A DNA stretch of 64,000 nucleotides from Beggiatoa alba B18LD (lineage in GTDB: Bacteria; Pseudomonadota; Gammaproteobacteria; Beggiatoales; Beggiatoaceae), in NCBI RefSeq assembly GCF_000245015.1, contig NZ_JH600070.1, forward strand, positions 3,976,780 through 4,040,779, given 5' to 3'. This document shows positions 1-27,126 of this stretch, piece by piece. A program made the translations under genes and the position numbers. Each line of letters begins with the position of its first letter. Position 1 is the stretch's first letter. The notes beneath the pieces were generated by a model that was given only the letters and a program-made list of their open reading frames with translations, ran no database searches and was not told where the DNA came from.

Positions 1-121
1 CGAGATCGATAGTGCGCGTTTCAACCGCCTGCTTTGGCGAACTAGCTGTAACGTGAGTTATTCGAATATTAGCGAGGAGATTCTAAGTTTCAACCGCCTG
101 CTTTGGCGAACTAGCTGTAAC
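1..121 (-). CRISPR. Leader-proximal end of a CRISPR array
   Basis: Two identical 35-bp repeats lie at 18-52 and 87-121, beginning GTTTCAACCGCC and ending AGCTGTAAC on the plus strand. They are separated by a unique 34-bp spacer (53-86), and a further partial spacer fills 1-17. The repeat holds a short dyad, CGCC-AAAGCA-GGCG on the minus strand. Read on the minus strand the repeat ends in GGTTGAAAC, the usual 5' handle side of processed crRNAs, so transcription probably runs right to left and 53-86 would be the newest spacer. No cas gene is present and the array runs off the left edge, so the subtype cannot be assigned. Only two repeats are visible, but exact identity, spacing and unique spacer make CRISPR the best reading. 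Confidence 0.85.
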
Positions 122-320
122 CCCGACGGTCAAAATAATCGCATATTTTTCACTTGCTTGCAAGCCAAAATTTTCATGAAAAATCACCCAAAAAAGTAGA
201 ACTCTTTTGCATATTTCTTGCATAATAAAATATATAATTAAATCAATAAAATATAAATATCGTTTTTCAAAAAAACCGCCCATTTTACGACCCTCGAAAA
301 GTAGAACTCTCTTCTTGATT
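122..320 (-). promoter_or_regulatory. Probable CRISPR leader (AT-rich)
   Basis: This AT-rich, non-coding stretch directly abuts the last repeat on the side expected for the leader if the array is read on the minus strand. It contains a 14-bp direct repeat, AAAAGTAGAACTCT, at 192-205 and 297-310. The two short open frames here have no homology I recognise and no ribosome binding site. Leader status is inferred from position and composition. Confidence 0.45.
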
Positions 321-446
321 TTAAAGGATTATTCTATTATTCCCGTTTATCCCTACGATAGAGATAACTTGATATTGATACAACTTCATTAAAAAAACAG
401 TAAAGCGATGACAACCCCAATATTGCGAAAAAGTATTTAAAACAGT

Positions 447-538
447 GGGGAGCATTTGATGATGTTCCATTATGCTTGTTTTTCTTTAGGTACAACTTTT
501 TTATTTCAGCCCTTCTGCTTTTTTCAGTTTTATCATTA
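447..538. repeat. Diverged repeat C, copy 1
   Basis: About 92 bp here (core GATGTTCCATTAT, then CTTTAGGTACAACTTTTT and TTTTATCATTAA) is clearly related to 6348-6442. Its right end runs straight into the left terminus of a family-B element. It is non-coding and flanks the topA 3' region. The remainder of 321-446 shows nothing recognisable. Confidence 0.65.
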
Positions 539-888
539 ACCTGAGTTTGGCGAATTTCTTTTAAGAAGACAACAAGTTGTCTGAATCAGAATTCACAGAA
601 TTTTCAGAATTAGCAGAATTAAAAAGCATGATTCACTTTAACTTTTTGGTTTAAGGGGTTTAAATTCTGTTAATTCTGCTAATTCTGTGAATTCTGATTC
701 AGACAAAAAAAAACCTGCTAGGTTTTGAAAACCTAGCAGGTCTGTCGGTAAGCAGAATTAAAAAGCATGATTCACCTTAATTTTTTGGTTTAAGGGGTTT
801 AAATTCTGTTAATTCTGCTAATTCTGTGAATTCTGATTCAGACAAAAAAACCTGCTAGGTTTTGAAAACCTAGCAGGTCTGTCGGTAA
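536..888. repeat. Family-B composite repeat, one-ended, with internal tandem duplication
   Basis: It starts with a family-B terminus, TTAACCTGAGTTTGGCGA, followed by TTGTCTGAATCAGAATTC and CAGAATT-type 9-bp units. It then contains a 139-bp tandem duplication, 612-750 and 751-888. Each duplicate carries the loop sequence AAAAAGCATGATTCAC, the return arm ending CTGATTCAGACAA and a CCTGCTAGG palindrome. The right terminus CTCAGGTTA is missing, so the copy is truncated on the topA side. Confidence 0.8.
844..877 (-). terminator. Rho-independent terminator of topA, supplied by the repeat
   Basis: A perfect 13-bp stem, CCTGCTAGGTTTT / AAAACCTAGCAGG (851-863 and 865-877), is followed on the minus strand by seven Ts (844-850). 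It lies 23 bp past the topA stop codon. An equivalent hairpin at 714-740 backs it up. Confidence 0.8.
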
Positions 889-899
889 AAAGTCTTATC

Positions 900-3215
900 T
901 TATTCCGCTGTTGTTGGTTCTGTTACTGTTGCCACATTCTCTACAAAACCACAGCTCTTGTTTGGGCATACTTTTTGAGTTCCCCATCGTTTTGTGACTT
1001 TTAACGTCAAAATGGGTGAGCCACATTGTGGGCAGGGTTCGGCGATAGGTTGGTGCGAAACGGCGTAATTGCATGTCGGATAGGTTGAGCATGAATAGAA
1101 AAACGTCCCAAACCGCGATTTGCGTCGCACTAGCGTTCCTGTTTTGCAGGCAGGACATGTAACACCCGTATTATCTTCTGGCATCGGTTCTGTATGTTTA
1201 CAGGTGGGATAATTGCTACAGCCAATAAATTTGCTGCCATTGCGTGCTTGTTTGACATGTAACGCGGAATTGCATAAGGGGCAAGCGCGTCCTTCAACAA
1301 CAACGGCTTCTACTGCGGGTGCTGGGTTGCTGTTATCGCCATCAATATTGCGGGTGTAATCACAATCAGGATAAGCAGAACAACCTATAAATGAACCGCG
1401 CTTGCCTAACCGTTTTGTGAGTGGTTTCCCACATTTTGGGCAAGCTTCATCTAATACTTCTTGTGTGACATCTTTACGTTGTACGGTTTCCGTTTTTTCG
1501 TCGACGAGTTTTTTAAACTTTTTCCAGAATTTGTCCATCACGGGTATCCATTCTTTTTCCCCGCGAGAGATTGCATCTAATTCGTCTTCTAATTGAGCAG
1601 TAAAGTTGTAATCGACATAGCGTTGAAAATGCTCGGTTAGAAATTTATTAACGATTCTACCAACATCAGTTGGATAAAAGCGTTTTTTATCTAAAATGGC
1701 ATATTCACGTTGTAGTAAGGTTGAAATAATCGTTGCGTAGGTGGAAGGGCGACCAATGCCAAACTCTTCTAAGGCTTTTACTAAGCTTGCTTCTGAGTAG
1801 CGGGGTGGGGGTTCTGTAAAGTGTTGTTCTGCGCGAATATTTGCGACTTTAACTTGTTCACCAACTTCTAGGGGGGGGAGCATTTTTTCATCTTCATCCC
1901 CTTGTTTGCTATCATCAACGCCCTCTTGATATACCGCCATAAAACCAGCATGTACTAATGTAGAGCCATTCGCACGAAAATTATTACCTTCTCCACAGGC
2001 AAGGTCGACTGCAACGGTGTCTAAAATCGCGGGGGTCATTTGACAGGCAATGGTCCGTTGCCAAATGAGGGTATAAAGTTTAAGTTGGTCTATGGTTAAG
2101 ACTTTTGCGAGCGTATCTGGGTAACGGTGTGCACTGGTCGGGCGGATAGCTTCGTGGGCTTCCTGCGCATTTTTTGCTTTGGTTTTATACTGGACAGGGT
2201 TTTTCGGTAAATTATCTTTTCCGTAACGTTTTTCGATAACGTCACGAATATCGGCAATGGCTTCATCAGCTAGATTTACTGAGTCAGTCCGCATATAGGT
2301 AATTAAACCCACAGCACCATCACCAATATCAATCCCTTCATAGAGTTGTTGCGCTACTTGCATGGTTTTTTTCGAGGCAAATCCCAATTTGCGGGCGGCT
2401 TCTTGTTGTAGCGTTGAGGTTGTAAAAGGGGCAGTCGGTTGGCGTTTACGTTGCTTTTTCTCAACTTTGCTGACAATGAGCTTACCATCAGCAAGGGTTA
2501 TTAATTCATCACGGGCATGATGGGCTTGTTCAGTATTATTAATGCTGAATTGTGTGAGTTTTTCGCCCTTGTATTGATTTAATTTTGCGACAAATTTTTG
2601 TTTTTCTTTTTCGTTATCCGCTTCTATTGTCCAATATTCAAGGGGTTTAAACGCTTCAATTTCTTGTTCACGTTCTGCAATCAGCCGTAAAGCGGGACTT
2701 TGTACTCGCCCAGCTGAAAGTCCGCGCCGAATTTTTTTCCAAAGTAAAGGGGAGAGGTTAAAACCGACAAGGTAATCTAATGCACGCCGTGCTTGTTGTG
2801 CATTAATTAATTCAGAGGAAAGACTACGCGGATGTGCAATAGCATCTTGTACTGCTTGTTGCGTAATTTCGTAAAAAGCAACGCGATGAACTGGCTTTTT
2901 GCCAATCAGATTATTTTCTTTAAGAATTTCGTACAAATGCCATGAAATCGCCTCACCTTCACGGTCAGGGTCAGTTGCTAAATAGAGTGTATCCGCTTGC
3001 TTGATTGCTTTTTTTATTGTTTCAACGTGTTTGCTATTTTTTTCTATCAATTGATAATTCATGGCAAACGCATTATCAGGGTCAACCGCGCCTGATTTGG
3101 GTAGTAGGTCGCGCACGTGTCCATACGATGCCGTAACGGTAAAGTCTTTACCTAAGTATTTTTCTATCGTCTTCGCTTTTGCGGGAGACTCAACAATAAC
3201 AAGATTCTTAGCCAC
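900..3215 (-). CDS. topA: DNA topoisomerase I
   Basis: Type IA topoisomerase that relaxes negative supercoils in the nucleoid through a transient 5'-phosphotyrosine bond. The N-terminal TOPRIM domain begins with VIVESPAKAKTIEKYLG and has the acidic triad TDPDREGE (D82, D84, E86). The catalytic tyrosine is Y307 in ITYMRTDS. The C-terminus has four cysteine clusters starting near residues 592, 645, 687 and 728, typical of topoisomerase zinc ribbons. At 771 aa it is somewhat shorter than the E. coli enzyme (865 aa). It follows smg on the same strand after a 129-bp gap, so it may also have its own promoter. A hairpin terminator follows the stop codon. Confidence 0.97.
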   Translation of the reverse strand: MAKNLVIVESPAKAKTIEKYLGKDFTVTASYGHVRDLLPKSGAVDPDNAFAMNYQLIEKNSKHVETIKKAIKQADTLYLATDPDREGEAISWHLYEILKENNLIGKKPVHRVAFYEITQQAVQDAIAHPRSLSSELINAQQARRALDYLVGFNLSPLLWKKIRRGLSAGRVQSPALRLIAEREQEIEAFKPLEYWTIEADNEKEKQKFVAKLNQYKGEKLTQFSINNTEQAHHARDELITLADGKLIVSKVEKKQRKRQPTAPFTTSTLQQEAARKLGFASKKTMQVAQQLYEGIDIGDGAVGLITYMRTDSVNLADEAIADIRDVIEKRYGKDNLPKNPVQYKTKAKNAQEAHEAIRPTSAHRYPDTLAKVLTIDQLKLYTLIWQRTIACQMTPAILDTVAVDLACGEGNNFRANGSTLVHAGFMAVYQEGVDDSKQGDEDEKMLPPLEVGEQVKVANIRAEQHFTEPPPRYSEASLVKALEEFGIGRPSTYATIISTLLQREYAILDKKRFYPTDVGRIVNKFLTEHFQRYVDYNFTAQLEDELDAISRGEKEWIPVMDKFWKKFKKLVDEKTETVQRKDVTQEVLDEACPKCGKPLTKRLGKRGSFIGCSAYPDCDYTRNIDGDNSNPAPAVEAVVVEGRACPLCNSALHVKQARNGSKFIGCSNYPTCKHTEPMPEDNTGVTCPACKTGTLVRRKSRFGTFFYSCSTYPTCNYAVSHQPIAEPCPQCGSPILTLKVTKRWGTQKVCPNKSCGFVENVATVTEPTTAE

Positions 3216-3344
3216 AACAAATTTAACTCTGGTGAAAGGAAATGATGAACAGGGTCATAACATAAGGTGATATCCCTGTTTTTTCAAACAATAATTTGTT
3301 TTTAACGACTGTAATACGGTTGTTAGTCACACTATTCACGTTGT

Positions 3345-3821
3345 TTAGTGTAGTTGTCCCGCCATTTCTTCATAGACAAGTTCTTCAATCCATGAAAATG
3401 CGGTTTCATGATCTGGTTGGTTAAAGAGCACCATGAGAATGACCCATTTTAGGTCTTCTAAAGAAAGTTCGTCAGTTTCTAGTGCCATTACACGGTCTAA
3501 GACTAATTCGCGGTTTAGGGGGTCTAAAACGCCAATTTGTTCCAGAAAAAGCAGGAAACCACGGCATTCTAGGTCTAATTTAGCTATTTCTTCTTCTATA
3601 TAAATTCGAATAGAAGCAATATTTTGTTTTTTAGTATCTTGTGAGTCTGGACGTGAAACTAGCCCGACAAGCCATGTCAAGGCTTTTTGAACTGCTGTAC
3701 CAGAAAAACCAGCTTCTGTCAGTTCTACATAAAGCACATCGTGTTCTGTACTGATACGGTTATCTTCATCCATGTAATTTTCAAACAGATACATCAAAAT
3801 ATCTAAAATATTATCTTCCAC
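3345..3821 (-). CDS. smg: Smg family protein (DUF494)
   Basis: A 158-aa protein opening with MEDNILDILMYLFENYMDED, the hallmark of the Smg/DUF494 family found beside dprA and topA in many beta- and gammaproteobacteria. It is acidic and helical, with no signal peptide or membrane segment, so it is cytosolic. Its molecular function is not established. Position is the strongest support: it lies 19 bp downstream of dprA and upstream of topA on the same strand, so it is probably co-transcribed with dprA. The minus-strand start is preceded by a GGAGATAAA-like Shine-Dalgarno sequence. Confidence 0.92.
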   Translation of the reverse strand: MEDNILDILMYLFENYMDEDNRISTEHDVLYVELTEAGFSGTAVQKALTWLVGLVSRPDSQDTKKQNIASIRIYIEEEIAKLDLECRGFLLFLEQIGVLDPLNRELVLDRVMALETDELSLEDLKWVILMVLFNQPDHETAFSWIEELVYEEMAGQLH

Positions 3822-3840
3822 TCAATTTATCTCCGTCAGC

Positions 3841-4983
3841 TTAGGAAAGCCGTACATAAAGCCCGCCTGCTTGTGAGGCAACAAGCCCTTGCAATTCTAA
3901 AATTAACAGCATGGAGGAAACCGCCTCAGCGGTCAATCCACTCAGCTCGACTAGATTATCAATCGATTGCGCTTCTGTATATAAATATTCTAATAAACGC
4001 TGGTAATCGCTATCTAACTCAGTGTGCTGGGTGTAGCGTTTTTCAGAAGGAGGAAGTGTAGCTGATGGATATGCGGGGGTTTCAGGTTGTTTGGGTAAAT
4101 GGAGAAAGAGTTCTTCTATAACATCGGCAGCCGTTTCTACTAATTTCGCGCCTTCTTTTATCAGTGCATGACAACCTTTTGCTAAGGGATTATGAATAGA
4201 GCCTGGAATTGCAAAAACATCACGTCCTTGTTCTACGGCTTGACGTGCCGTGATGAGTGAGCCGCTACGCAATGAGGCTTCTACAACGAGTGTGCCAATG
4301 CTTAACCCACTGATAATGCGATTACGACGGGGGAAATGTTGGGTTTTTGCAGGTGTGCCTAGGGGTAATTCTGAAATTAATACCCCTGTTTGAGCGATTT
4401 GGTGCGCGAGTTCACGATTTTGTGCGGGATAAACGCGGTCTAATCCTGTTCCCGCTACGGCAATGGTGCGTCCTGTCGCGGCTAATGCACCTTGATGGCT
4501 GTAGGCATCGATACCTAAAGCAAGACCGCTGGTAATCGTAAACCCCGCTTGTGCTAAGTTTTTTGCAAAATCGTAGGCAATTTCTTTTCCTAAATGGCTA
4601 GGATTGCGCGTGCCGACCATTGCAACTTGTTGACTATTTAGTAAGGTGTAATCCCCATGAACAAAAAGAATCGGGGGGGGGTCATGAATTTCGCTCAAAC
4701 GGTGGGGATAGTGTGCGTCTGCAAAGGTGATTATGTAGTTATTATCTAAGGATAACCAGTGTAAATCTTTTTCTATCGCGCTTTTGTCAGGGTTTTCTAA
4801 ATAGTGTAAAAGTTCGCCTTTAATACCTAAGGCTGCCCATTCGGCACGCCCTGCGGTCATCGTGTTGCGGGGCGAACCGAAATGTTTGAGAAAACGTAAG
4901 AAGGTAACAGGACCAACAGTTGGCGCACGAGCAAGTAATAACCAGTATTCAATATCGGTCACATTGATAGTCGATGCAATCAA
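3841..4983 (-). CDS. dprA: DNA-processing protein DprA (Smf)
   Basis: Cytosolic single-strand DNA-binding protein that loads RecA onto incoming DNA during natural transformation. The Rossmann-like core is intact, with VGTRNPS at 123-129, SGLALGIDAYSHQGAL from 152 and FPRRNRIISGLS at 217-228. The last 60 residues form the C-terminal winged-helix domain of long DprA proteins. It is 380 aa, a normal length. The start overlaps the end of the upstream LysM gene by four bases (ATGA), implying translational coupling, and smg follows 19 bp later. No other competence gene is in the window, so transformability cannot be judged. Confidence 0.96.
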   Translation of the reverse strand: MIASTINVTDIEYWLLLARAPTVGPVTFLRFLKHFGSPRNTMTAGRAEWAALGIKGELLHYLENPDKSAIEKDLHWLSLDNNYIITFADAHYPHRLSEIHDPPPILFVHGDYTLLNSQQVAMVGTRNPSHLGKEIAYDFAKNLAQAGFTITSGLALGIDAYSHQGALAATGRTIAVAGTGLDRVYPAQNRELAHQIAQTGVLISELPLGTPAKTQHFPRRNRIISGLSIGTLVVEASLRSGSLITARQAVEQGRDVFAIPGSIHNPLAKGCHALIKEGAKLVETAADVIEELFLHLPKQPETPAYPSATLPPSEKRYTQHTELDSDYQRLLEYLYTEAQSIDNLVELSGLTAEAVSSMLLILELQGLVASQAGGLYVRLS

Positions 4984-6026
4984 GGAATTGCCACTTCATC
5001 ATGCAGTTGAATTGCAAGCGTTGCGTTGGTAATAACGCCGTAGCTTACTCGGTCAAAGGTTTTAAAAATCATCATCGTTCCAGCACTTTCACTGGGCATT
5101 TTAATGGCTTCTCCTCGGTCTTCTTTTATACCACCTGCATGGAGAACTTGTAACACATGACCAATTTCAATGCCGTCGTCTTCGCCTTTATTAATAACAA
5201 CAATTTGATATTGTCCAATTTGAGAAACGCCATCAACTAAAGCGATAATTTGCCCGTCTTCTAGTTCGTCAGGTGATGATAAAACAAAATCTTGATTATA
5301 CTCATTATTCACTATGGGCATAATGATATCGCCATCGCGGATTTCTCGTTGAGAATGAGTAACCAGTAATGTGGCAGGGTCGCCTTCTACGGTGAGTTTG
5401 GCATCGCCTAAAAAAATGGCTTCATGTGCTAATATCTCGCCATCCAGTGGATTTTGTAAAACTTGACCAAGACGAATAATTGCGTATTCTGCCCCTTTTT
5501 CGTTGTCTTCCATTTCGTCTAAACCGCGAACGTAAAGTTTAGAACCCATACTCGCTAATAAAGATTTATCCGCATTTCCAACGATATAGCCAGCTTTTTC
5601 TAATTCATCATCAGTGACTATGCGCGGGCGATTAAGGAATTGTTGAATAACTTCTGTGGGTAAAACAGGGGGAGCAGTGTTTTTATTAGAAGAAGCGCGT
5701 TCCGCAGGTAATAGCTTTACGTCGCGTCCTTCTTTGATTTGAAGGGCAAAATCTTCCCCTTGTTTGATAAGGCTGACAATATCGCCAGCACGGACTTGGG
5801 GGAGTTGGTCATCAGGCAGATAAATAGATTCTTGCCAATATTGTAGAACAATATCAGGATTAGTAACGAATTGTGCAGCAACATTCGCTAAACTTTCGCC
5901 AGCGTTGACGACATATCTATTCGGTGGGCTAGCAACGAATTTTGTTTCAGGGCTAAGCAGTAAAATAGTTGCATAGCTTGTGGAGGAACAGAGTAGGAGT
6001 AATGAGGAAAGTATCAGCTTTTTCAT
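4980..6026 (-). CDS. LysM domain-containing envelope protein
   Basis: 348-aa exported protein. Residues 1-19 form a signal peptide (MKKLILSSLLLL, then SYA) and a LysM peptidoglycan-binding module follows at about 38-85 (VNAGESLANVAAQF, then VRAGDIVSLI). The remainder has no motif I recognise beyond beta-rich segments. LysM proteins of this type are commonly encoded immediately upstream of dprA in gammaproteobacteria, which matches the ATGA overlap here. A role in peptidoglycan binding in the periplasm is inferred from the domain. It is the first gene of the cluster; its upstream region is occupied by repeats. Confidence 0.88.
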   Translation of the reverse strand: MKKLILSSLLLLCSSTSYATILLLSPETKFVASPPNRYVVNAGESLANVAAQFVTNPDIVLQYWQESIYLPDDQLPQVRAGDIVSLIKQGEDFALQIKEGRDVKLLPAERASSNKNTAPPVLPTEVIQQFLNRPRIVTDDELEKAGYIVGNADKSLLASMGSKLYVRGLDEMEDNEKGAEYAIIRLGQVLQNPLDGEILAHEAIFLGDAKLTVEGDPATLLVTHSQREIRDGDIIMPIVNNEYNQDFVLSSPDELEDGQIIALVDGVSQIGQYQIVVINKGEDDGIEIGHVLQVLHAGGIKEDRGEAIKMPSESAGTMMIFKTFDRVSYGVITNATLAIQLHDEVAIP

Positions 6027-6212
6027 AGCTTTGGTTCTGTTTATGGGCTGTTTTGGAAAAGTACAGGCAGATTTATTTAAAGAGTATCAAGGTCATCATA
6101 AAACAGCAATCTATCGTGTAGATTTTCTCTATTTTTAGAGAAGGCGTTAAGGACACGCTTCACTTAACCTGAATTCTGCGAGTTTCTTTTAAAAAGACAA
6201 CAGGTTGAATGT

Positions 6213-6319
6213 TGTAGGGTGGAATAGCGAAGCGTATTCCACCTTGAAATTCTGCAAAAACTGAGTAAAAACAGATTATAAATCGTATGGTGGAATACGC
6301 TTCGCTATTCCACCCTACA
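6213..6319. repeat. 31-bp perfect inverted repeat pair
   Basis: The arms 6213-6243 and 6289-6319 are exact reverse complements (core GGTGGAATACGCTTCGCTA), 45 bp apart. Each arm is itself partly palindromic (GGTGGAAT/ATTCCACC). Similar GTAGGGTGG-type repeats are scattered in many proteobacterial and cyanobacterial genomes. The pair sits inside a family-B element, so it is probably a nested insertion. Confidence 0.8.
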
Positions 6320-18356: not shown

Positions 18357-18974
18357 TTACTGAATCATAAATTGGTTTAGGTAATTAGCAACCTTAACTT
18401 TTAATTCTTCTAAGGATGAAATATCTAAAACAAACGCGACATATCCAATAATATCTTTGGTTTGTAAGGTAAAATCGATTTTTAACAGCATAATAATGTC
18501 TTGTTCTATTGGAATCGTATTACTTAAGACCTCAATTGCAGAACCGACTGTAAATGTCGGTAATTCATTAATTAACTCGTGTCCCAAAATATCGGCAAAG
18601 CTGGCTAAACAAGAGTTAAGAATGATATTTCCAACCTCTATCATGGCATCTTGTTCTAACTCGCGTAATTCAGCAGTGGATAATTCTGTTTTAATAATTG
18701 CACGGGTTAACTCCAGACTTTTATCCTCTGGAAACAATAAGATTGCTTCCCCCCAAAACGAGCCATGAAATCGTTGGCGAATAGCTGTAATGGGTTTATC
18801 GGGTGTCTTATTAATGCTACACGCAGCAGATTGACGCGAAACGAACTCAATATTGGGAATGGATAATTTTACCTCTGCATTAACCATCGTACTCAATGCG
18901 GCAGCGGCTTGTCCCATTCCTATATTAAGCAATTCGGTAATAACATCAATTTCTAACTCAGTTAGTTGAATCAT
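18357..18974 (-). CDS. cheC: CheC-family CheY-P phosphatase
   Basis: 205-aa cytosolic protein of the CheC/CheX/FliY family, which dephosphorylates CheY-P. Two complete copies of the signature D-X3-E-X2-N-X22-P are visible: D10, E14, N17, P40 and D109, E113, N116, P139. Both active centres thus look intact, as in classical CheC. It starts one base after the stop codon of the upstream response regulator, its likely substrate. No other chemotaxis or flagellar gene is nearby. Beggiatoa-like bacteria glide, so the output may be gliding taxis or another receiver-driven process; that is inference. Confidence 0.9.
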   Translation of the reverse strand: MIQLTELEIDVITELLNIGMGQAAAALSTMVNAEVKLSIPNIEFVSRQSAACSINKTPDKPITAIRQRFHGSFWGEAILLFPEDKSLELTRAIIKTELSTAELRELEQDAMIEVGNIILNSCLASFADILGHELINELPTFTVGSAIEVLSNTIPIEQDIIMLLKIDFTLQTKDIIGYVAFVLDISSLEELKVKVANYLNQFMIQ

Positions 18975-18975
18975 T

Positions 18976-19332
18976 TCAATTTTGTAAGAAATTTAAGATT
19001 TTTTCTTCCGTAATGGGTTTCGAGATAAATTGAATACCCATTAAACTTGCTTTCTGCTTAACCATTTCTTGGATATTTGCCGTTAATAAACCAATTTTAG
19101 CGCGGGGATATTTTTCTAGTAATTTTGACGCTAATAATAATCCATCCATACCAGGCATGTTTAAGTCTAAAGTCGCAATATCAACTTGACATGATGCAGT
19201 TTTACTTAATGCTTCATCGCCATTGCTGGCTTCAATAATTTCCGCTTGTGGATTTGCTTGATTAATGATTGCACGAATAAGCATTCTGGAAACACGGCTG
19301 TCGTCCACAACTAAGATGGTTTGTGATGTCAT
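18976..19332 (-). CDS. CheY-like single-domain response regulator
   Basis: 118-aa stand-alone receiver with acidic pocket VVDDSR (D10, D11), phosphoacceptor D56 in LDLNMPGMDG and K105 in SKPIT. There is no output domain, so it acts by protein-protein contact like CheY. One base separates its stop from the cheC start, and GAAATTGAA precedes the next gene, so the two are translationally linked. The cognate kinase is not in the window. The upstream 233 bp (19333-19565), shared with a divergent NERD gene, shows no distinctive motif. Confidence 0.93.
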   Translation of the reverse strand: MTSQTILVVDDSRVSRMLIRAIINQANPQAEIIEASNGDEALSKTASCQVDIATLDLNMPGMDGLLLASKLLEKYPRAKIGLLTANIQEMVKQKASLMGIQFISKPITEEKILNFLQN

Positions 19333-19565
19333 ATTAAATTCCTAAAACTTAGTAAACATGCGAATAACCGATAGTATAAAGGAGCAATATTATTTTGGGT
19401 ATTTTTAGCGGACTTTGATAAAACAATATTGTGCTTCTTTATGAGAATGAATGCACTTTTACATATCTGTGTATAATATTTGTTTATTCATCGCTAAATA
19501 TCTATTTTAGATTGATTGGTAAATATTATTTTTTTATAAAAATCTTTTAGTTAATGGAGATGTAG

Positions 19566-20336
19566 ATGAAAGAATTTATTTTTTTAATTTTAATACTTAG
19601 TCCTATTTTTCTACTGATTACAGTCACTACTTTTTTAAAATCATCCTCTTTTAAAGGGATGCGGGGAGAAGCATGTATTAATAAACTTATTAGTAAGTCA
19701 TTAGATAAAAAGGTTTATCACTTGCTTAAAAATGTTACATTAGCGATTGACAAACAGCATACCACGCAAATAGATCACCTTGTGATTTCGCCTTTTGGAA
19801 TTTTTGTCATTGAAACAAAAAACATGCAAGGTGTCATCATTGGTGCACGTGATGATAAACAGTGGATGCAAAAAATTCATCAGCAATATTATCCTTTTCA
19901 AAATCCTTTACATCAAAATTATAAACACTTAAAAGCATTAGAAATATTGTTAAATGTGCGCTTGAATCAGTTACATTCTATCGTTGTTTTTAGTGGAAAA
20001 AGTAAATTTGCAGCCCCAATGCCTAGGCATGTTATTCAGAAAAAACAATTAATTTCCTTGATTCAGCAAGAGCAAACGCTTTGTTTTTCACCCGCAGAGG
20101 TAACTACTTTATTAGATAAAATAGCGACATTGCGTTTAACACCGTCGTTGAAAACGCATAAAGCCCATGTTAAACAACTTGCGACAATCAATGCAGAAAA
20201 AGCCTTAACGATGACTTGCCCATGTTGTCAACAGCCGATGGTTTTGCGCGTCACACAACAAGGAAAATCACAGGGGAAACCATTTTGGGGATGTTCTCAA
20301 TTTCCAACGTGTAAAACAGTCGTTAATATTTCTTAA
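19566..20336 (+). CDS. NERD-domain protein with topoisomerase-type zinc ribbon
   Basis: 256-aa protein. Residues 3-22 form a membrane segment. A NERD (nuclease-related) domain follows at about 30-145 with nuclease-fold positions G34-E35, D70 in QIDHLVI and E83-x-K85 in VIETKN. The C-terminus is a four-cysteine ribbon (CPCCQQPM, then FWGCSQFPTCK) like those of topoisomerase I. Such NERD-zinc ribbon proteins are widespread but uncharacterised; DNA processing at the membrane is inferred. The next gene begins five bases after its stop, so the two are co-transcribed. Confidence 0.88.
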   Translation: MKEFIFLILILSPIFLLITVTTFLKSSSFKGMRGEACINKLISKSLDKKVYHLLKNVTLAIDKQHTTQIDHLVISPFGIFVIETKNMQGVIIGARDDKQWMQKIHQQYYPFQNPLHQNYKHLKALEILLNVRLNQLHSIVVFSGKSKFAAPMPRHVIQKKQLISLIQQEQTLCFSPAEVTTLLDKIATLRLTPSLKTHKAHVKQLATINAEKALTMTCPCCQQPMVLRVTQQGKSQGKPFWGCSQFPTCKTVVNIS

Positions 20337-20341
20337 AGGTG

Positions 20342-20767
20342 ATGGAAACGCCCATGTTATTAACCTTAGAAAAAGTCATTATTCTAAAAACTGTTAATAT
20401 TTTTTCAGAAATTCCCGAAGAATATTTAGTCGAGCTTGCCTCTAGCGTTGAACAAATTCGGGTAAAAGCAGGAGAAATTATTTTTAAAAAAGGGGATTTA
20501 GGCTCGTCTATGTATATTATCGTCGTCGGCAAAGTCCGCATTCATGACGGAGATAAAGAAATTGCCGTCTTAGGCGACCGTGAAGTATTTGGTGAATTAG
20601 CCGCATTAGACCCTGAACCCCGTTCAGCGGCCGTCACCGCCATTGAAGATACAACGCTATTTCGTGTCAATGAAAGTATGTTATATGAGCTAATTACAGA
20701 GCGAACTGAAGTTGCTCGTGGCATTATTCGTGTCTTGTGCCAGCGATTACGAACAACAACAGATTAG
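20342..20767 (+). CDS. Cyclic nucleotide-binding domain protein
   Basis: About 141 aa, a single cNMP-binding domain: IFSEIPEEYLVELASSVEQI, GEIIFKKGD, GSSMYIIVVGKVRIHD, then FGELAALDPEPRSAAVTAIED resembling the phosphate-binding cassette (FGE-x-A-x-L and RSAA). There is no helix-turn-helix, so it is not a Crp-type activator. The alternative start GTG 20339 is possible. It lies between the NERD gene (five bases) and sppA (23 bases). Ligand unknown: the cassette arginine and glutamate are present, which favours real nucleotide binding. Confidence 0.85.
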   Translation: METPMLLTLEKVIILKTVNIFSEIPEEYLVELASSVEQIRVKAGEIIFKKGDLGSSMYIIVVGKVRIHDGDKEIAVLGDREVFGELAALDPEPRSAAVTAIEDTTLFRVNESMLYELITERTEVARGIIRVLCQRLRTTTD

Positions 20768-20790
20768 GCAGATTGATTAAAGGATGTGAA

Positions 20791-21798
20791 ATGATGACAA
20801 CTGATGATAAAAATATTACCCCTGCCAGTCCAAGCAGTTGGGAACGCGATGCACTCACCCGTTTAGCCTTTGCCGCGATTAATGAACAACGTCGCGCTCG
20901 TCGCTGGCGGATTTTTTTCACTTGTTTATTTTTTATCTATGCCTTTGCAGTGACGTTTTTAGTCAATCCTAACTTTTTGGAAACAGTGAAAAGCTGGTTC
21001 GGTACAGAAACCGAAGAGCCTTTAATTGGTGGCGATAAACATACGGCATTGATTGAAATTAATGGCGCAATTAGTTCAGGTAGTAAAACGAATGCGGATG
21101 TGATTATTACAGGGCTACGCAATGCCTTTAAAGACAGTAATACAGCAGGGGTGATTGTTCGCATTAATAGCCCTGGTGGTAGTCCTGTACAGGCGGGTTA
21201 TATTTACGATGAAATTAAACGGTTGCGGAAAAAATACCCCAATATTCCCTTGTATGCGGTTATCGTAGATTTATGTGCATCAGGTGGATATTACATTGCC
21301 GCCGCCGCCGACCAAATTTATGCGGATAAAGCCAGTTTAGTGGGTTCTATTGGTGTGATATTAAACGGTTTTGGTTTTGTTAATACGATGGATAAATTAG
21401 GCGTTGAACGTCGCTTATATACTGCGGGGGAACATAAAGGCTTTTTAGACCCCTTTTCGCCTGAAAACCCTGACGAAGTCGCGCATATAAAGAAAACACT
21501 GACCCAAGTTCATGAGCAATTTATTAATATAGTCAAGCAAGGACGCGGTGAACGTTTGAAATATCAAACACATCCTGAATTGTTCTCAGGCTTAATTTGG
21601 ACAGGCGAGCAAGCGATAGAATTAGGGTTAGTCGATGCTTTAGGCAGTAGCAGTTATGTTGCTCGTGACGTGATAAAGGCAGAAAAAATTGTTGATTTTA
21701 CACCTAATCCAAACTTATTTGAGCGATTTGCAGAACGCTTTGGTTCTAGTGCAAGCCAAACATTTTGGCAAAATTTGCAACCTATTGGCTTAGATTAG
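20791..21798 (+). CDS. SppA-type signal peptide peptidase (family S49)
   Basis: 335 aa from ATG 20791, which has AAAGGATG upstream; a longer frame overlaps the previous gene and lacks this. One membrane segment at about 39-58 precedes a single S49 domain. The likely Ser-Lys dyad is S164 in CASGGYYIA and K216 in AGEHKGFLDPFSPE. Conserved blocks INSPGGSPVQAG and ADKASLVGSIGV are present. The family degrades cleaved signal peptides in the cytoplasmic membrane. The short, single-domain form differs from the duplicated E. coli SppA. It is probably in an operon with the preceding NERD and cNMP genes. Confidence 0.92.
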   Translation: MMTTDDKNITPASPSSWERDALTRLAFAAINEQRRARRWRIFFTCLFFIYAFAVTFLVNPNFLETVKSWFGTETEEPLIGGDKHTALIEINGAISSGSKTNADVIITGLRNAFKDSNTAGVIVRINSPGGSPVQAGYIYDEIKRLRKKYPNIPLYAVIVDLCASGGYYIAAAADQIYADKASLVGSIGVILNGFGFVNTMDKLGVERRLYTAGEHKGFLDPFSPENPDEVAHIKKTLTQVHEQFINIVKQGRGERLKYQTHPELFSGLIWTGEQAIELGLVDALGSSSYVARDVIKAEKIVDFTPNPNLFERFAERFGSSASQTFWQNLQPIGLD

Positions 21799-21837
21799 CA
21801 TTAATCGTGGTCTTTCCCTTTTAATACATAATAAAAC

Positions 21838-22572
21838 ATGCTAAGTATCAATTCTCTTAAGATTTTTTGTCTAAGCGTAGGGTTAATATTCTCTCTCAAT
21901 AGCTATGCAGAAATGGAGACGATTTCTATTGTGCCAACTGCATTTTATTCCTATCGAGATTTTGAATATTCTGTTGGTGGGGCGGGCGGTGTGCAAGGCG
22001 CAATTAACTCACTGGGCGCGGGTGTTACGGTTATTTATCAACAGTTCTATCTGGATATTGCAGGGGAAGAAAACCCGCGTGCCAGTGAAGAAGAAACTAA
22101 TAACTTATTATTCACCAATACTGTTGATTTTGACCGCCGTGATTTAACGCTCTCTTTTGGCTATGCCATTAACGAAGCAATTAGCACATTTATTGGCTAC
22201 AAATATGGTAAATCGACTATTACTGCCCGTCCTGATTCTCCTTTTGCGGGTGAAGAAATCAGTTTAACGGGGGATGGCGTGTTTATTGGGGCGGGTGGTG
22301 TTTGGTCTGTACGAGATTGGGGATTTATTTCCTTCAGTGCAGCCTATGCCCAATTAGATAGCACTTATCGAGATTTAACGGTTGATACTGTTAAAGGCGA
22401 TGCAACAGGAACAAGTTTAAGCGTGAAATGGAAAGCCCCTATTACGGAAAACCTTTTTTATGACTTATCCTTAATTCGTCACGACTACCGTTATACCGAT
22501 TTCGATAAAATTGAATCGGATATTTCAGAGCAAATTTTATCGTTACGGCTTGGACTAGCCTATCGCTTCTAA
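21838..22572 (+). CDS. Outer-membrane beta-barrel protein
   Basis: 244 aa. A signal peptide (MLSINSLKIFCLSVGLIFS, ending SYA) precedes alternating hydrophobic/polar strands with repeated aromatic girdles, for example YGKSTITARPDS and SLSVKWKAPITENLFYD. The chain ends LGLAYRF, with the terminal phenylalanine recognised by the Bam machinery. No specific porin family is recognised. It lies 39 bp past sppA, so it may belong to that operon. Function unknown. Confidence 0.75.
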   Translation: MLSINSLKIFCLSVGLIFSLNSYAEMETISIVPTAFYSYRDFEYSVGGAGGVQGAINSLGAGVTVIYQQFYLDIAGEENPRASEEETNNLLFTNTVDFDRRDLTLSFGYAINEAISTFIGYKYGKSTITARPDSPFAGEEISLTGDGVFIGAGGVWSVRDWGFISFSAAYAQLDSTYRDLTVDTVKGDATGTSLSVKWKAPITENLFYDLSLIRHDYRYTDFDKIESDISEQILSLRLGLAYRF

Positions 22573-22625
22573 CACAACACATAAAAATAATTACTTTCTC
22601 CAAATCATTAAGGATATTCAATGTC

Positions 22626-23618
22626 ATGGAAAATATGGATACCCCGAAGTCTTATCCAGCCATAGAACCCTTTGCAACTCATATGCTAGCCGTTGGCGAC
22701 GGTCATACACTGTATTTGGAAGAAAGTGGACATTTACAAGGAATTCCCGTGATTTTCCTGCATGGGGGGCCCGGTTCTTACTGCAAACCACAACACCGCT
22801 GTTTTTTTAACCCACGCCACTATCGCATTATTTTATTTGACCAACGCGGCGCAGGACGTTCCACCCCAGCAGGCAACATTCAGCACAATACAACACAACA
22901 TTTACTTACCGATATGGAAACCATCCGCCAGTATTTAGGAATTGATAACTGGCTAGTCTTTGGTGGTTCTTGGGGAGCAACCTTAGGATTACTCTACGCA
23001 TTAACTTACCCCGAACGAGTATTAGGGCTGATACTGCGCGGTACATTTCTCGCCCGCCAACACGATTTAACATGGTTCTATCACCATAACGGCGTTGCTC
23101 GCCTCTTTCCCCAATATTGGGAAGCCTTTACAAACTTTAAATTTTTAACTGAAAAATGTGCTTACCCGCCTGTGAAAAAAGGAGAAGTAGCCGATTTACT
23201 GTCAACTTACAACTACTTATTACGTGACGACACCCCCCAAGCACACCAAGCCGCGTTAGCATGGTCGAATTGGGAAGGTACTGTTATTAGCATGGCGCAA
23301 TTTCCCCGCTTAACAGAACCAACGCTTGAACTACTCCATGCTGCCCGCGTTGCCTGTCACTACATCAGCAACAACTGCTTTATTGAAGATAACATCATCT
23401 TACAACAAGCCACCGCTCGCCTTGCCCACATACCAACCCAATTAATACACGGTCAACAAGACCTAATCTGTCCTTTAGAAAGTGCCTACCAACTGCATCA
23501 AGCCTTGCCCCACAGCCAATTAATGGTTTTACCCAACAGCGGACACCTCTCCAGTGACCCCGCAATGTTTAATGCACTCGTACAAGCGACAGATTCATTC
23601 TTACAACAACAAGGCTAA
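22626..23618 (+). CDS. pip: Proline iminopeptidase
   Basis: 330-aa alpha/beta hydrolase of peptidase family S33 that removes N-terminal proline from peptides in the cytosol. Hallmarks are HGGPGSYCKPQHRCFFNP, the oxyanion and strand region FDQRGAGRSTP, nucleophile S115 in GGSWGATLGL, Asp in GQQDLICP and catalytic His in PNSGHLSSDP. Length is standard (about 315-330 aa). Two ATGs occur at the start (22626 and in-frame 22635); 22626 is retained. Monocistronic by spacing. Confidence 0.94.
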   Translation: MENMDTPKSYPAIEPFATHMLAVGDGHTLYLEESGHLQGIPVIFLHGGPGSYCKPQHRCFFNPRHYRIILFDQRGAGRSTPAGNIQHNTTQHLLTDMETIRQYLGIDNWLVFGGSWGATLGLLYALTYPERVLGLILRGTFLARQHDLTWFYHHNGVARLFPQYWEAFTNFKFLTEKCAYPPVKKGEVADLLSTYNYLLRDDTPQAHQAALAWSNWEGTVISMAQFPRLTEPTLELLHAARVACHYISNNCFIEDNIILQQATARLAHIPTQLIHGQQDLICPLESAYQLHQALPHSQLMVLPNSGHLSSDPAMFNALVQATDSFLQQQG

Positions 23619-23657
23619 ATGCCTATTTACTTAACGTTATAAACTAGAAAAAATCCT

Positions 23658-24944
23658 ATGTCACACAATCGCAAAGTTTCTATAATTGGTTTAGGTTACG
23701 TAGGTTTACCTGCTGCGGTTGCCTTTGCTAAATACGGGCGCGTTATCGGCTTCGACATCAATCAACAACGCATTCAAGCCCTACAAGCAGGACACGACCA
23801 CACCCACGAAGTTGATAACATCGCATTACAACAAGCAGATGTCCTGTTTACCACCGACCCCACCCAACTAAAACAAGCCGACTTTCACATCATCGCCGTC
23901 CCTACCCCCGTCGATGAACAAAAACACCCCGATTTACTCCCCGTATTAAAGGCCTCCAAAACCGTTGGGCAACAACTCAAACGTGGCGATATCGTCGTTT
24001 ATGAATCAACTGTTTACCCTGGTGCGACAGAAGAAACTTGTGTGCCTGTCCTAGAACGCGAATCAGGGCTACGCTGTGGCGTTGATTTCAGTGTCGGCTA
24101 CTCACCTGAACGCATAAACCCCGGAGATAAAGTTCACACCTTCACCAACATTATGAAAGTTGTCTCAGGCTTTGATACAGACACCTTAGAAATTGTCGCC
24201 CAAGTTTACGGCTCAGTCGTCACCGCAGGCGTATATCGTGCTGCCAGCATCAAAATTGCCGAAGCAGCCAAAGTCGTTGAAAATACACAACGCGACGTTA
24301 ATATTGCCCTAATTAACGAACTCTCCATGATATTCAACCGATTAGGCATAGACACGCACGACGTACTCAAAGCAGCGGGCACAAAATGGAACTTTCTCCC
24401 CTTCACCCCTGGACTAGTCGGCGGACACTGCATTGGCGTTGACCCCTACTACTTAGACCACAAAGCCCGCCAAGTGGGCTATAAACCGCAAATTATTCCC
24501 GCTAGCCGCTTACTGAACGACAGCATGGGCGTATTCATTGCCGAACAAGCCCTACAACACCTAGAACGCTTAGGCAGTATCGTACAAGCCAGCATCGTCA
24601 CCGTACTCGGTATATCCTTTAAAGAAAACGTCCCCGACCTACGCAATACCCGCGTTATCGACATTATCCACACCCTACAACAACACGGCGTTATCGTCCA
24701 AGTCTATGACCCCTTTGTTGACGCGACCGAAGCACAACACGAACTTGGCATAACCCTATGCAAAGCAGAAGATTTAAAAAAATCAGCCTGCGTTATTCTC
24801 GCTGTTGCCCACCAAGATTTCCTAAAACAAGGCTGGGCATGGTTAAGCAGTTTACTAGAGGATAAACGCAGTCTTGTTGTTGATGTTAAAGGTGTTCTCC
24901 CAAGAGAAACAATCCCGCCCAATATCCAACTCTGGCGACTATGA
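23658..24944 (+). CDS. UDP-sugar 6-dehydrogenase (TviB/WbpO-like)
   Basis: 428-aa NAD-dependent UDP-glucose/GDP-mannose dehydrogenase family enzyme. The Rossmann motif is IGLGYVGLP (residues 9-18), with E-S-T-V-Y-P-G at about 116-122, the helix SIKIAEAAKVVENTQRDVNI and the catalytic cysteine C258 in GGHCIGVDPYYL. The sequence resembles TviB/WbpO, which oxidise UDP-GlcNAc or UDP-GalNAc to uronic acids for capsule or O-antigen, rather than UDP-glucose dehydrogenases. No other polysaccharide gene is adjacent. The stop overlaps the RDD gene start by four bases. Confidence 0.92.
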   Translation: MSHNRKVSIIGLGYVGLPAAVAFAKYGRVIGFDINQQRIQALQAGHDHTHEVDNIALQQADVLFTTDPTQLKQADFHIIAVPTPVDEQKHPDLLPVLKASKTVGQQLKRGDIVVYESTVYPGATEETCVPVLERESGLRCGVDFSVGYSPERINPGDKVHTFTNIMKVVSGFDTDTLEIVAQVYGSVVTAGVYRAASIKIAEAAKVVENTQRDVNIALINELSMIFNRLGIDTHDVLKAAGTKWNFLPFTPGLVGGHCIGVDPYYLDHKARQVGYKPQIIPASRLLNDSMGVFIAEQALQHLERLGSIVQASIVTVLGISFKENVPDLRNTRVIDIIHTLQQHGVIVQVYDPFVDATEAQHELGITLCKAEDLKKSACVILAVAHQDFLKQGWAWLSSLLEDKRSLVVDVKGVLPRETIPPNIQLWRL

Positions 24945-25633
24945 ACACCCCCCCACTGATTGACACAACCTACATCATTGAAACCCCCGAAGGCGTAGAA
25001 CTAACCCTACACATTGCGGGGCCAGTAGTACGAGCGATTGCATGGTTTATTGACTTATGCATTCGCCTTCTTATTTACATTCTGCTGGGCAATATGCTGT
25101 TGAAATTTGGGAATATTGGTGTGGGTTTGCTATTACTCATGCTTTTTCTCGGTGAATGGTTCTATTACGTACTATTCGAAGTTTATGCAGGCGGGAAAAC
25201 GCTGGGAAAACGCTTACTGGGTATCAAAGTCATACTAGCTTCAGGCGCGCCCGTTACTTGGTCGGCATCGATGACCCGTAACTTATTACGAGTTGCTGAT
25301 TTCCTACCGTTTCTTAATGCTCTTGGACTTATCAGCATGATATGTACAAAAAATTTTCAACGACTAGGCGATATAGCTGCACAAACTATCGTCATTTATC
25401 AAGATAAACCGATTAAACATAATGCCTTGCCTAATATGCCAGCTTATCATTTATCCTACCCCCTCACCCTAGAAGAACAACAAGCCATTATCAATTTTGC
25501 CGAACGAGCGCAAACCTTTTCCCAAGAACGCGCCGACGAACTCGCAAGCATCATTCAACCCCTCATCGCAGACGATAAAAACGCGACTCAAGCGTTATAT
25601 CAAATCGCCATCGGATTATTGGGGAAAAAATAA
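24941..25633 (+). CDS. RDD family membrane protein
   Basis: 230 aa. The RDD motif set is clear: VVRAIAWFIDLCIRLLIYILL, then FYYVLFEVYAGGKTLGKRLLGIKV and a third hydrophobic helix around NLLRVADFLPFLNALGLISM. Roughly four membrane segments lie in residues 25-145 and a soluble helical tail follows. RDD proteins are often encoded with MoxR ATPases and VWA proteins; here a VWA gene follows about 480 bp later and a moxR lies at 50257. It overlaps the preceding dehydrogenase by ATGA. Function unknown; transport of ions or osmolytes has been proposed for some members. Confidence 0.88.
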   Translation: MNTPPLIDTTYIIETPEGVELTLHIAGPVVRAIAWFIDLCIRLLIYILLGNMLLKFGNIGVGLLLLMLFLGEWFYYVLFEVYAGGKTLGKRLLGIKVILASGAPVTWSASMTRNLLRVADFLPFLNALGLISMICTKNFQRLGDIAAQTIVIYQDKPIKHNALPNMPAYHLSYPLTLEEQQAIINFAERAQTFSQERADELASIIQPLIADDKNATQALYQIAIGLLGKK

Positions 25634-25701
25634 CCCGTACAGTCTATTTCCTCATGAATAATACTTCCTTATAATTTCAGCATTAAAAACAAGGGGGAAG
25701 T

Positions 25702-26113
25702 ATGATGAATGAAGAAAATAAGCGTTTATTACTAGAAAAAATTGCATGTTTAGAAATTAACTTGAGTTCGGCGAGATTTTAAAAAAAGACAAGCATTTGT
25801 CTGAATCAGGATTTTCAGAATTAACAGGATTTAAACCCCTTAAACCAAAAAATTAATGCGAATCACGCTTTTTAATTCTGCTAATTCTGTGAATTCTGAT
25901 TCAGACAAAACAGAAACCTGCTAGGTTTTTAAAACCTATCAGGTTTCTGTTTTATTTTATAAATCTCGCAAACTGGGATTAAATTATAGTTTGACCGATG
26001 AAGAAATCTTGCAACGGACAGAATTAACCTATGGCTTTGTCGTTCCCCTTTATCGCCGTTGGATAAAATGGCGACACACGCCCCAACAGGTTAGCGAATA
26101 CTACGAGAGATAA
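25702..26113 (+). pseudogene. Small gene interrupted by a family-B element
   Basis: The left piece has a strong ribosome binding site (AAGGGGGAAG) and reads MMNEENKRLLLEKIACLEI before entering the repeat at 25757 and hitting TAA. After the repeat ends near 25982, an open frame without its own start reads NYSLTDEEILQRTELTYGFV and ends VSEYYER at 26113, two bases before the VWA start codon. Together they would encode about 63 residues. Removing the element plus one TTAA copy (222 bp) does not restore a common frame, so a further indel is needed or the pieces are separate. No homologue is recognised. Confidence 0.55.
25757..25982. repeat. Family-B element (about 226 bp) inside a small gene
   Basis: Left end TTAACTTGAGTTCGGCGA and a degenerate right end TCTCGCAAACTGGGATTAA enclose the TTGTCTGAATCAGG arm, the loop motif GCGAATCACGCTTTTTAATTC, the return arm CTGATTCAGACAA and a CCTGCTAGG/CCTATCAGG hairpin. 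TTAA is present at both boundaries. Degenerate ends suggest an old insertion. Confidence 0.82.
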
Positions 26114-26115
26114 TC

Positions 26116-27126
26116 ATGGATTTCACAAACTTCGAATTTGCTCAACCTTATTGGTTATTCGCCTTGTTTGTGCCTGTTTTGGTGTTTATCAGCTTGCGTT
26201 ATCGCCATCCTTTATATCGACGTTTGCATTTGTATGCAGACGAGCATTTATTACCGCATCTATTAGTTGGGGAAAATACGCCACTCAACGGCTGGAAAGG
26301 TAATTATTTTTTGGTTTGGTCAGTGGTTTGGCTGTGTGGTGTCATTGCTTTAGCACAACCGCGCTGGGATTATGAATTGCAAACTTTATTCAAACCACAA
26401 ACGCAATTATTAATCGTCTTGGATTTATCCGATTCTATGCATGTCCGCGATTTGCCTCACGCACGGCTTGAGCAGGCAATACAAGAAATTACAGAGTTGT
26501 TGGAGACACAAGCAGATATGTCTATCGGGTTATTGGCGTTTGCAGGTATTCCGCATATTATCACGCCTTTAACCGATGATTATCAAACAATTAAGCATTT
26601 ATTATATGAATTAAAGCCGTCGTTATTACCGATTCAGGGCAGTCGTTTTGCCCCAGCATTGGAACAGGCTTTATTTTTATTGAAAACGACGGCAAATAGT
26701 GAGGAAGCTGTACAGCATATTTTATTGATTTCCGATGGGGAATTTGAGCCACAGGATGTCGCGCAAAGTATCAAGTTATTACAAAACAGTCGCGCTTTTT
26801 TGCATAGTTTGGCGGTGGGAACGGTTAGCGGTGGGCATATTCCGCAAGAGACTCAGGATAAATGGGTGACTGATGCGCAGGGGAATGTGGTGATTTCGCG
26901 CTTACATGAAGAAATTTTACGGCAGTTGGTGCAAGTAGGGCGGGGGATTTATCAAGTAGGAACGTATCAAACCGCAGACACGCAGACAATTTTAAATGTT
27001 GTACGCCAACGAATGCAGGATTTTACGGAGCAACAGGCAACGCAGAAAGTATGGCATGAGCGATTTTATTTATTCGTCATTGTGATGTTGTTCTGGGTAT
27101 TATGGGCTTTTCGTAAAGTGATTTAA
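26116..27126 (+). CDS. VWA-domain membrane protein (BatA/BatB-like)
   Basis: 336 aa. Two N-terminal membrane segments (about 12-28 and 63-80), a von Willebrand A domain from about 95 to 300, and a C-terminal membrane segment (about 313-332). The MIDAS motif DLSDSM (D103, S105, S107) and TPLTDD are intact, so metal binding is likely. This topology is that of BatA/BatB proteins, partners of MoxR ATPases in aerotolerance or protein maturation clusters. The moxR homologue here is 24 kb away. An interrupted small gene precedes it by two bases. Confidence 0.9.
   Translation: MDFTNFEFAQPYWLFALFVPVLVFISLRYRHPLYRRLHLYADEHLLPHLLVGENTPLNGWKGNYFLVWSVVWLCGVIALAQPRWDYELQTLFKPQTQLLIVLDLSDSMHVRDLPHARLEQAIQEITELLETQADMSIGLLAFAGIPHIITPLTDDYQTIKHLLYELKPSLLPIQGSRFAPALEQALFLLKTTANSEEAVQHILLISDGEFEPQDVAQSIKLLQNSRAFLHSLAVGTVSGGHIPQETQDKWVTDAQGNVVISRLHEEILRQLVQVGRGIYQVGTYQTADTQTILNVVRQRMQDFTEQQATQKVWHERFYLFVIVMLFWVLWAFRKVI

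Follow-up and report, generated by a model that had tools for sequence, protein, structure and literature searches.

NTT-HEAT proteins with a cyclic-nucleotide-binding domain (cNBD) that is either fused to them or encoded next to them were described by Major, Embley and Williams (2017; PMC5381601), and the parts of that work drawn on here suggest control by cAMP, report duplicated cNBDs as well as repeated fusion and fission in NTT-HEAT-cNBD proteins, and call the functions of NTT fusions unknown. As regards proteins with a NERD domain, an experimentally studied membrane protein is SmdA of Staphylococcus aureus, which, in the portion of the report used here, is described as being without several of the most conserved NERD residues (PMC9040797). 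The present analysis concerns a tight tandem run of four genes in a stretch of 64,000 nucleotides of contig NZ_JH600070.1 of Beggiatoa alba B18LD (this whole stretch being called the window), which encode a NERD protein with a zinc ribbon, a small protein with a cyclic nucleotide monophosphate (cNMP)-binding domain, an S49 (SppA-like) peptidase and a probable beta-barrel outer-membrane protein. An initial annotation had read the run as a possible signal-responsive envelope or defence system; comparison with other genomes argues instead that it is probably no dedicated system but a set of four independent genes collocated in this genus, one of which would be a regulatory domain displaced from a transporter of NTT-HEAT type.

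The genome of the window (G000, 4.27 Mb) was compared with one other genome of the genus (G001, locus L103), in which the stretch from thrS to an RDD-family gene is syntenic and holds all four genes. The order is thus kept in two of two genomes of the genus and is not an accident of one genome, so that the check proposed in the initial annotation, conservation of the order in other genomes, comes out positively for the sister species; in no other locus examined was the order seen, and a conserved four-gene unit was rejected, since the order was not found beyond the genus. Full-length NERD genes occur in 7 of 42 genomes of the family (10 if fragments are counted), and the S49, barrel and cNMP genes are absent from the available flanks of the five that lie outside the genus (one on a contig of 4 kb), from beside the partial NERD gene of G035 and from beside the second NERD copy of G001. 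Among the best 80 of at least 555 NERD loci of GTDB, with flanks of up to 8 kb that are often cut, neither S49 nor barrel was seen in any, and a cNMP domain lies 3–5 kb away in two. Co-occurrence among the four genes is weak: with presence and absence scored over 57 genomes from homology search tables, at cut-offs chosen by the analyst, one-sided Fisher tests gave p values of 0.03–0.9 for five of the six pairs and 0.01 for the cNMP–barrel pair, and all six pairs exceed 0.05 among the 36 genomes of the family. Evidence for a four-component system was not found in these comparisons.

Each of the genes has other neighbours elsewhere. Outside the genus 43 genomes match S49 at E ≤ 1e-60, and of 19 loci chosen among them 15 carry, within about 1.5 kb upstream and on the same strand, a member of the RluC cluster, with a HAD gene additionally present in 8 of the 19; the identities of RNase E, RluC and HAD were obtained with Pfam in one of these loci. 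In G000 and G001, S49 and HAD are both missing from the 8.5 kb read at the best rluC locus, and therefore the S49 gene has probably moved. Matches to the barrel are confined to the family (30 of the 57 genomes at E ≤ 1e-3, 25 at E ≤ 1e-30), and of ten barrel loci outside the genus one stands beside thrS (G003) and one beside a response regulator and CheX (G025), so that the thrS side and the response regulator/CheX pair may have stood next to the barrel from early on. NERD, cNMP and S49 may, to judge by these sequences, be later arrivals beside it. In three of the same ten loci (G025, G008 and G015) the barrel follows a gene of one cluster, cl18. It was also observed that the barrel begins 1–81 bp past the cl18 gene (L132, L134 and L140), that the cl18 member at L132, in G025, encodes a Ser/Thr kinase in which TPR is matched weakly, and that in this locus relatives of the CheX-like protein and of the response regulator lie directly downstream of the barrel gene.

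The relatives of the cNMP protein (cNMP_binding, PF00027, E 2e-20 in 137 residues) are to be found with large proteins that have multiple transmembrane (TM) segments and HEAT repeats, referred to below as multi-TM-HEAT proteins. The closest matches outside the genus are in frame with such a protein, namely in G021 (54%), G006 (50%), G032 (50%, a piece of 528 residues near a contig end), G016 (45%) and G027 (38%), often as two tandem domains, and in G039 a stand-alone relative (43%) lies 2 bp upstream of a multi-TM-HEAT gene. HEAT was assigned by Pfam in G021, G016, G039 and both G000 transporters and by homology in the remaining ones, and hydropathy gave 11 TM peaks for the G021 protein, 10 for that of G039 and 10 and 12 for those of G000. 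Each of the two genus genomes encodes two multi-TM-HEAT proteins without a cNMP domain (L239-L242), elsewhere in the genome (in G000 on C2, near 1932145 and 1902620): no transporter gene stands beside the cNMP gene at 20354, and the transporter loci L239 and L240 are without a matching cNMP gene. In a cNMP tree that left out six locus translations (L039, L041-L044 and L047) because they were on the wrong strand and contained stops, the protein of the window clusters with the fused domains at a moderate support of 83/85. In the tree analysis the transporters of the genus fall on the side of the fused transporters in a 100/100 split from those that accompany a second stand-alone cNMP family (CN2). 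All eight genomes with the cNMP type (E ≤ 1e-20) are among the nine with the transporter type (E ≤ 1e-40), which gives p 5e-9 over the 57 genomes and 1e-6 within the family. The initial annotation had seen a ligand-sensing domain without a DNA-binding domain, and here the Pfam scan agrees, no DNA-binding domain having been found by it in the cNMP protein. PKG sites align with the segment FGELAALDPEPRSA, and matches to the class III cyclase domain number 16 in either genome of the genus, from which binding of a cyclic nucleotide appears likely; docking on the transporters in trans would be a putative further step.

Three side observations belong with these proteins. In eight of nine loci (L245, L246, L251-L254, L257 and L258) the CN2 gene is followed at 1–16 bp by a large gene on the same strand; four of the nine (L251-L254) were fetched since a transporter match was already visible, and four of the other five show the arrangement; the four downstream genes that were scanned match HEAT_2, one of them under the cut-off, and the three downstream proteins tested have 11–12 TM peaks. 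In L241 of G001 a transporter (2-3316) and a protein with a class III cyclase match (3337-6240) are convergent and 20 bp apart, and the likely G000 counterpart of this cyclase, of similar size and score, is far from the transporter. Finally, a protein of 690 residues with two cNMP domains and a PqqD-like domain (L130, 5227-7299, G039) adjoins the stand-alone cNMP gene of that genome.

As for the NERD protein, Pfam gives PF08378 at E 5e-30 and a Top1-type zinc ribbon slightly below the cut-off (31.2 versus 32 bits), with a single N-terminal TM peak by hydropathy. The relatives used were those 74 among the 80 GTDB loci that have an open reading frame (ORF) of 225–285 residues, 41 of which were aligned with the window protein. 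In these 42 sequences E35, D70, E83 and K85 are invariant, and the D..ExK pattern is found in 74 of the 74 relatives; the zinc-ribbon pattern is found in 53, the misses being mostly a substitution of P in CP, with one relative lacking the ribbon. The model built from the alignment reached a predicted local distance difference test (pLDDT) score of 93.5, and its top VIA-align matches are VC1899 (Z 9.5, root-mean-square deviation 2.9 Å, 119 residues aligned), Can2 (Z 9.3) and McrBC (Z 9.2), with mostly other nucleases further down the list; VC1899, Can2, McrBC and similar proteins we take to be members of the PD-(D/E)XK superfamily. Foldseek returned one match at E ≤ 0.001, an R2 retrotransposon protein. 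The motif and the structural list combined make a PD-(D/E)XK-like fold likely, which in the model would span residues 26-172 with the motif intact, and the protein would probably bind DNA through its zinc ribbon. The S49 protein matches Peptidase_S49 at E 1e-32 and reaches 151.8 bits against the TIGR00706 cut-off of 155.45; its serine motif and lysine position align with those of solved SppA chains, and the aligned Ser and Lys are presumably the catalytic residues. The barrel has a hydrophobic N-terminus by hydropathy and a weak match to OMP_b-brl (21.5 bits versus a cut-off of 28.7), and its model, made from a single sequence with no alignment, is unusable (pLDDT 31).

With regard to the layout (Table 1), the ORF listing of the window contains the four genes, all on the plus strand, where they had first been placed and with the identities then given to them, the barrel with its Pfam score below the cut-off. 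The gaps of 5, 23 and 39 bp given at the outset agree with the ORF starts, of which the first is probably to be corrected to 17 bp (18 in the sister species), since the cNMP start is taken as the ATG at 20354 because the sister has an in-frame TAG before the matching ATG. With starts matched to the window N-termini, the gap between cNMP and S49 is 23 bp in the window versus 40 bp in the sister, and that between S49 and barrel 39 bp versus 76–85 bp, figures that would shrink if the sister used earlier start codons, one of which is an ATG 1 bp past S49. The sister gap between S49 and barrel also holds a TATAAT of its own. A stem of 9 bp, AT-rich and with 3 further pairs, is predicted between these two genes in G001 (L103, 8395-8428), and no comparable hairpin is seen in the shorter gap of the window. 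The TATAAT at 19472..19477 is absent from the listing of a consensus promoter scan of 18900-26200, a region with 13 promoter-like sites against a shuffle mean of 18.1 and 8 terminator-like sites against 6.7. Judged from this layout, co-transcription is plausible and the four genes are perhaps one transcription unit. However, the same-strand run goes past the barrel into three more genes, and 22 of the 58 adjacent ORF pairs in the window, as given by a simple ORF caller, are on the same strand with a gap of ≤60 bp, so that a tight run is not unusual by itself.

Table 1. Features of the four-gene run and its surroundings (positions in the window).
Feature	Position	Strand	Remarks
CheX-like protein and response regulator	18357..19332	-	Divergent from the NERD gene; relatives adjoin the barrel gene in G025
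Candidate -10 element, TATAAT	19472..19477	+	Putative; precedes the NERD gene; also present in the aligned sister sequence
NERD protein	19566..20336	+	N-terminal TM helix; predicted PD-(D/E)XK-like fold; zinc ribbon of Top1 type at the C-terminus, residues 217-255
Lone cNMP-binding domain protein (137 aa)	20354..20767	+	ORF open from 20339/20342; sister-conserved start 20354
S49 (SppA-like) peptidase	20791..21798	+	Single N-terminal TM segment
Beta-barrel outer-membrane protein, with probable signal peptide	21838..22572	+	Probable; weak Pfam match; matches found within the family only
Prolyl aminopeptidase	22626..23618	+	TIGR01249 above cut-off; 53 bp after the barrel; run continues
UDP-sugar dehydrogenase-like gene	23658-24944	+	Named from reading the sequence, without family search; gap before, 39 bp
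RDD-family membrane protein	24941-25633	+	Gap before, -4 bp; end of the same-strand run

If the four genes are taken as independent, each of them would have a role that can be stated separately: (i) the NERD protein would be a membrane-tethered protein resembling PD-(D/E)XK nucleases, of predicted fold and putative activity and DNA binding; (ii) the cNMP protein, by homology and by the trees, would be the detached regulatory cNBD of an NTT-HEAT-type transporter, which would bind cAMP or cGMP from the many class III cyclases of the cell and would act in trans by docking to the HEAT solenoids of both multi-TM-HEAT proteins, whose genes lie at other places in the genome; (iii) the S49 protein would be an ordinary SppA-like protease of the rluC(-HAD)-S49 neighbourhood, relocated in the genus; (iv) and finally, the barrel would be an outer-membrane protein specific to the family. 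A bolder form of this, which we hold to be a possibility on the doubtful side, is that one diffusible cNMP protein, cut loose from an NTT-HEAT-cNBD transporter, would be the single cAMP/cGMP sensor, expressed with a membrane nuclease, and would set the activity of both paralogous multi-TM-HEAT transporters in trans.

Several observations weigh against this account. The cNMP tree contains weak joins and places where long branches meet. The PF03219 (NTT/TLC) model scores above threshold for one G000 transporter (24 bits) and for the G027 fusion, and thus in only 2 of 8 genomes, having missed the first G000 transporter and G001; hmmscan was without PF03219 in the four proteins given to it and favoured MFS_1, below cut-off, in two, and the NTT label is therefore weak, though plausible. 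The co-occurrence of cNMP protein and transporter is inflated because 6 of the 8 genomes have them as a fusion or side by side, and G034 has the transporter type (a frame of 544 residues) without the cNMP type. The Z of 9.5 for the NERD model is only somewhat over the 7-8 reached by models lacking relatives. Lastly, the order, the 94% identity of the cNMP protein between the two genus species and the gap of 17 versus 18 bp have been kept, and some selected coupling is therefore possible.

Three alternatives were considered. A ligand-responsive envelope system of four genes, special to the genus, in which the small protein bound to cAMP would control the peptidase and the NERD nuclease and the barrel would be the outer-membrane part, would account for the order in both species, for the near identity of the cNMP protein and for the TATAAT upstream of NERD in both. 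However, the system is not seen outside the genus, its genes co-occur little, and the run extends into other genes; the gaps on either side of S49 differ in the sister, the one before the barrel having a predicted hairpin and its own TATAAT; and among 12 genes for which the two species were compared NERD is the least conserved, at 56% identity and dN 0.34, far below the cNMP protein. Ratios dN/dS were not used because, for most genes, the synonymous distance between the species either approaches saturation or is undefined. We consider such a system unlikely. Much the same improbability attaches to a functional pair of NERD and cNMP with S49 and barrel as bystanders: the gap of 17–18 bp and the shared start kept in the sister speak for it, and against it no adjacent cNMP gene was found beside the NERD genes outside the genus in the flanks examined, and the conservation of the two proteins, 56% versus 94%, differs greatly.

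Least probable of all would be an anti-phage module in which the NERD nuclease was the core and the cNMP protein the sensor. The NERD domain does align to the NERD part of the PglW and MADS6 models and the cNMP domain to Pycsar models at the level of the domain, and a few NERD relatives adjoin genes of GajA/GajB, JetD or LmuA type. But the matches of the four genes are single domains of long models, far below the cut-offs where these are given, the eight flanking genes yield one weak partial match to defence models, and the setting is beside genes read as thrS, infC and rplT, syntenic with the sister species. For the 141 immediate neighbours scanned beside NERD relatives (151 ORFs uncut by the locus end, minus 10 longer than 900 residues), padloc revealed no recurring defence gene, with at most 2 per model, and a Pfam scan gave at most 3 per family. 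The defence module was accordingly rejected, the matches being at domain level or weak and partial, and no defence neighbour of NERD relatives recurring. The initial proposal of an envelope or defence system is in this way left unsupported on several counts, as the order is confined to the genus among the loci examined, the genes hardly co-occur, S49 has another neighbourhood, the relatives of the cNMP protein are tied to multi-TM-HEAT transporters and the defence matches are partial, at domain level or weak. A literature search returned no paper on the four-gene combination or on Beggiatoa with NERD; for zinc-ribbon NERD proteins and for the gene neighbourhood of the S49 peptidase it yielded nothing useful.

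In summary, the gene order itself is ordinary and genus-specific, and its lesson is that a tight tandem run is not necessarily a system. For the collocation of independent genes, the gain is on the side of the lone cNMP protein, which acquires a concrete and probable partner in the multi-TM-HEAT transporters, and, as a detached soluble regulatory domain, it would make work on ligand and docking easier than a fused membrane protein of 1,250 residues.

Compared with the NTT-HEAT-cNBD proteins, as far as the cited parts of their description go, the cNBD of the window is in the same Pfam family, and its relatives are beside or fused to a multi-TM-HEAT protein; unlike them, the cNBD of the genus is alone, behind a NERD gene and away from both transporters, and of the transporters of the genus only one, in G000, is matched by the NTT model, the two of G001 giving no match. 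The NERD protein of the window resembles SmdA, in the part of its description used here (PMC9040797), in its single N-terminal TM helix and in having the NERD domain on the cytoplasmic side, and differs from it in that it retains the D-ExK motif and adds a zinc ribbon. With SppA and SohB the S49 protein shares the domain, the aligned serine motif and lysine position and the N-terminal TM segment, although it is slightly below the TIGR00706 cut-off and outside the usual rluC neighbourhood. The predicted fold of NERD residues 26-172, finally, is like that of the PD-(D/E)XK nucleases Can2 and McrC, to which, in contrast, the window protein would add a membrane anchor and a zinc ribbon, and it has no cyclic oligoadenylate sensor domain.

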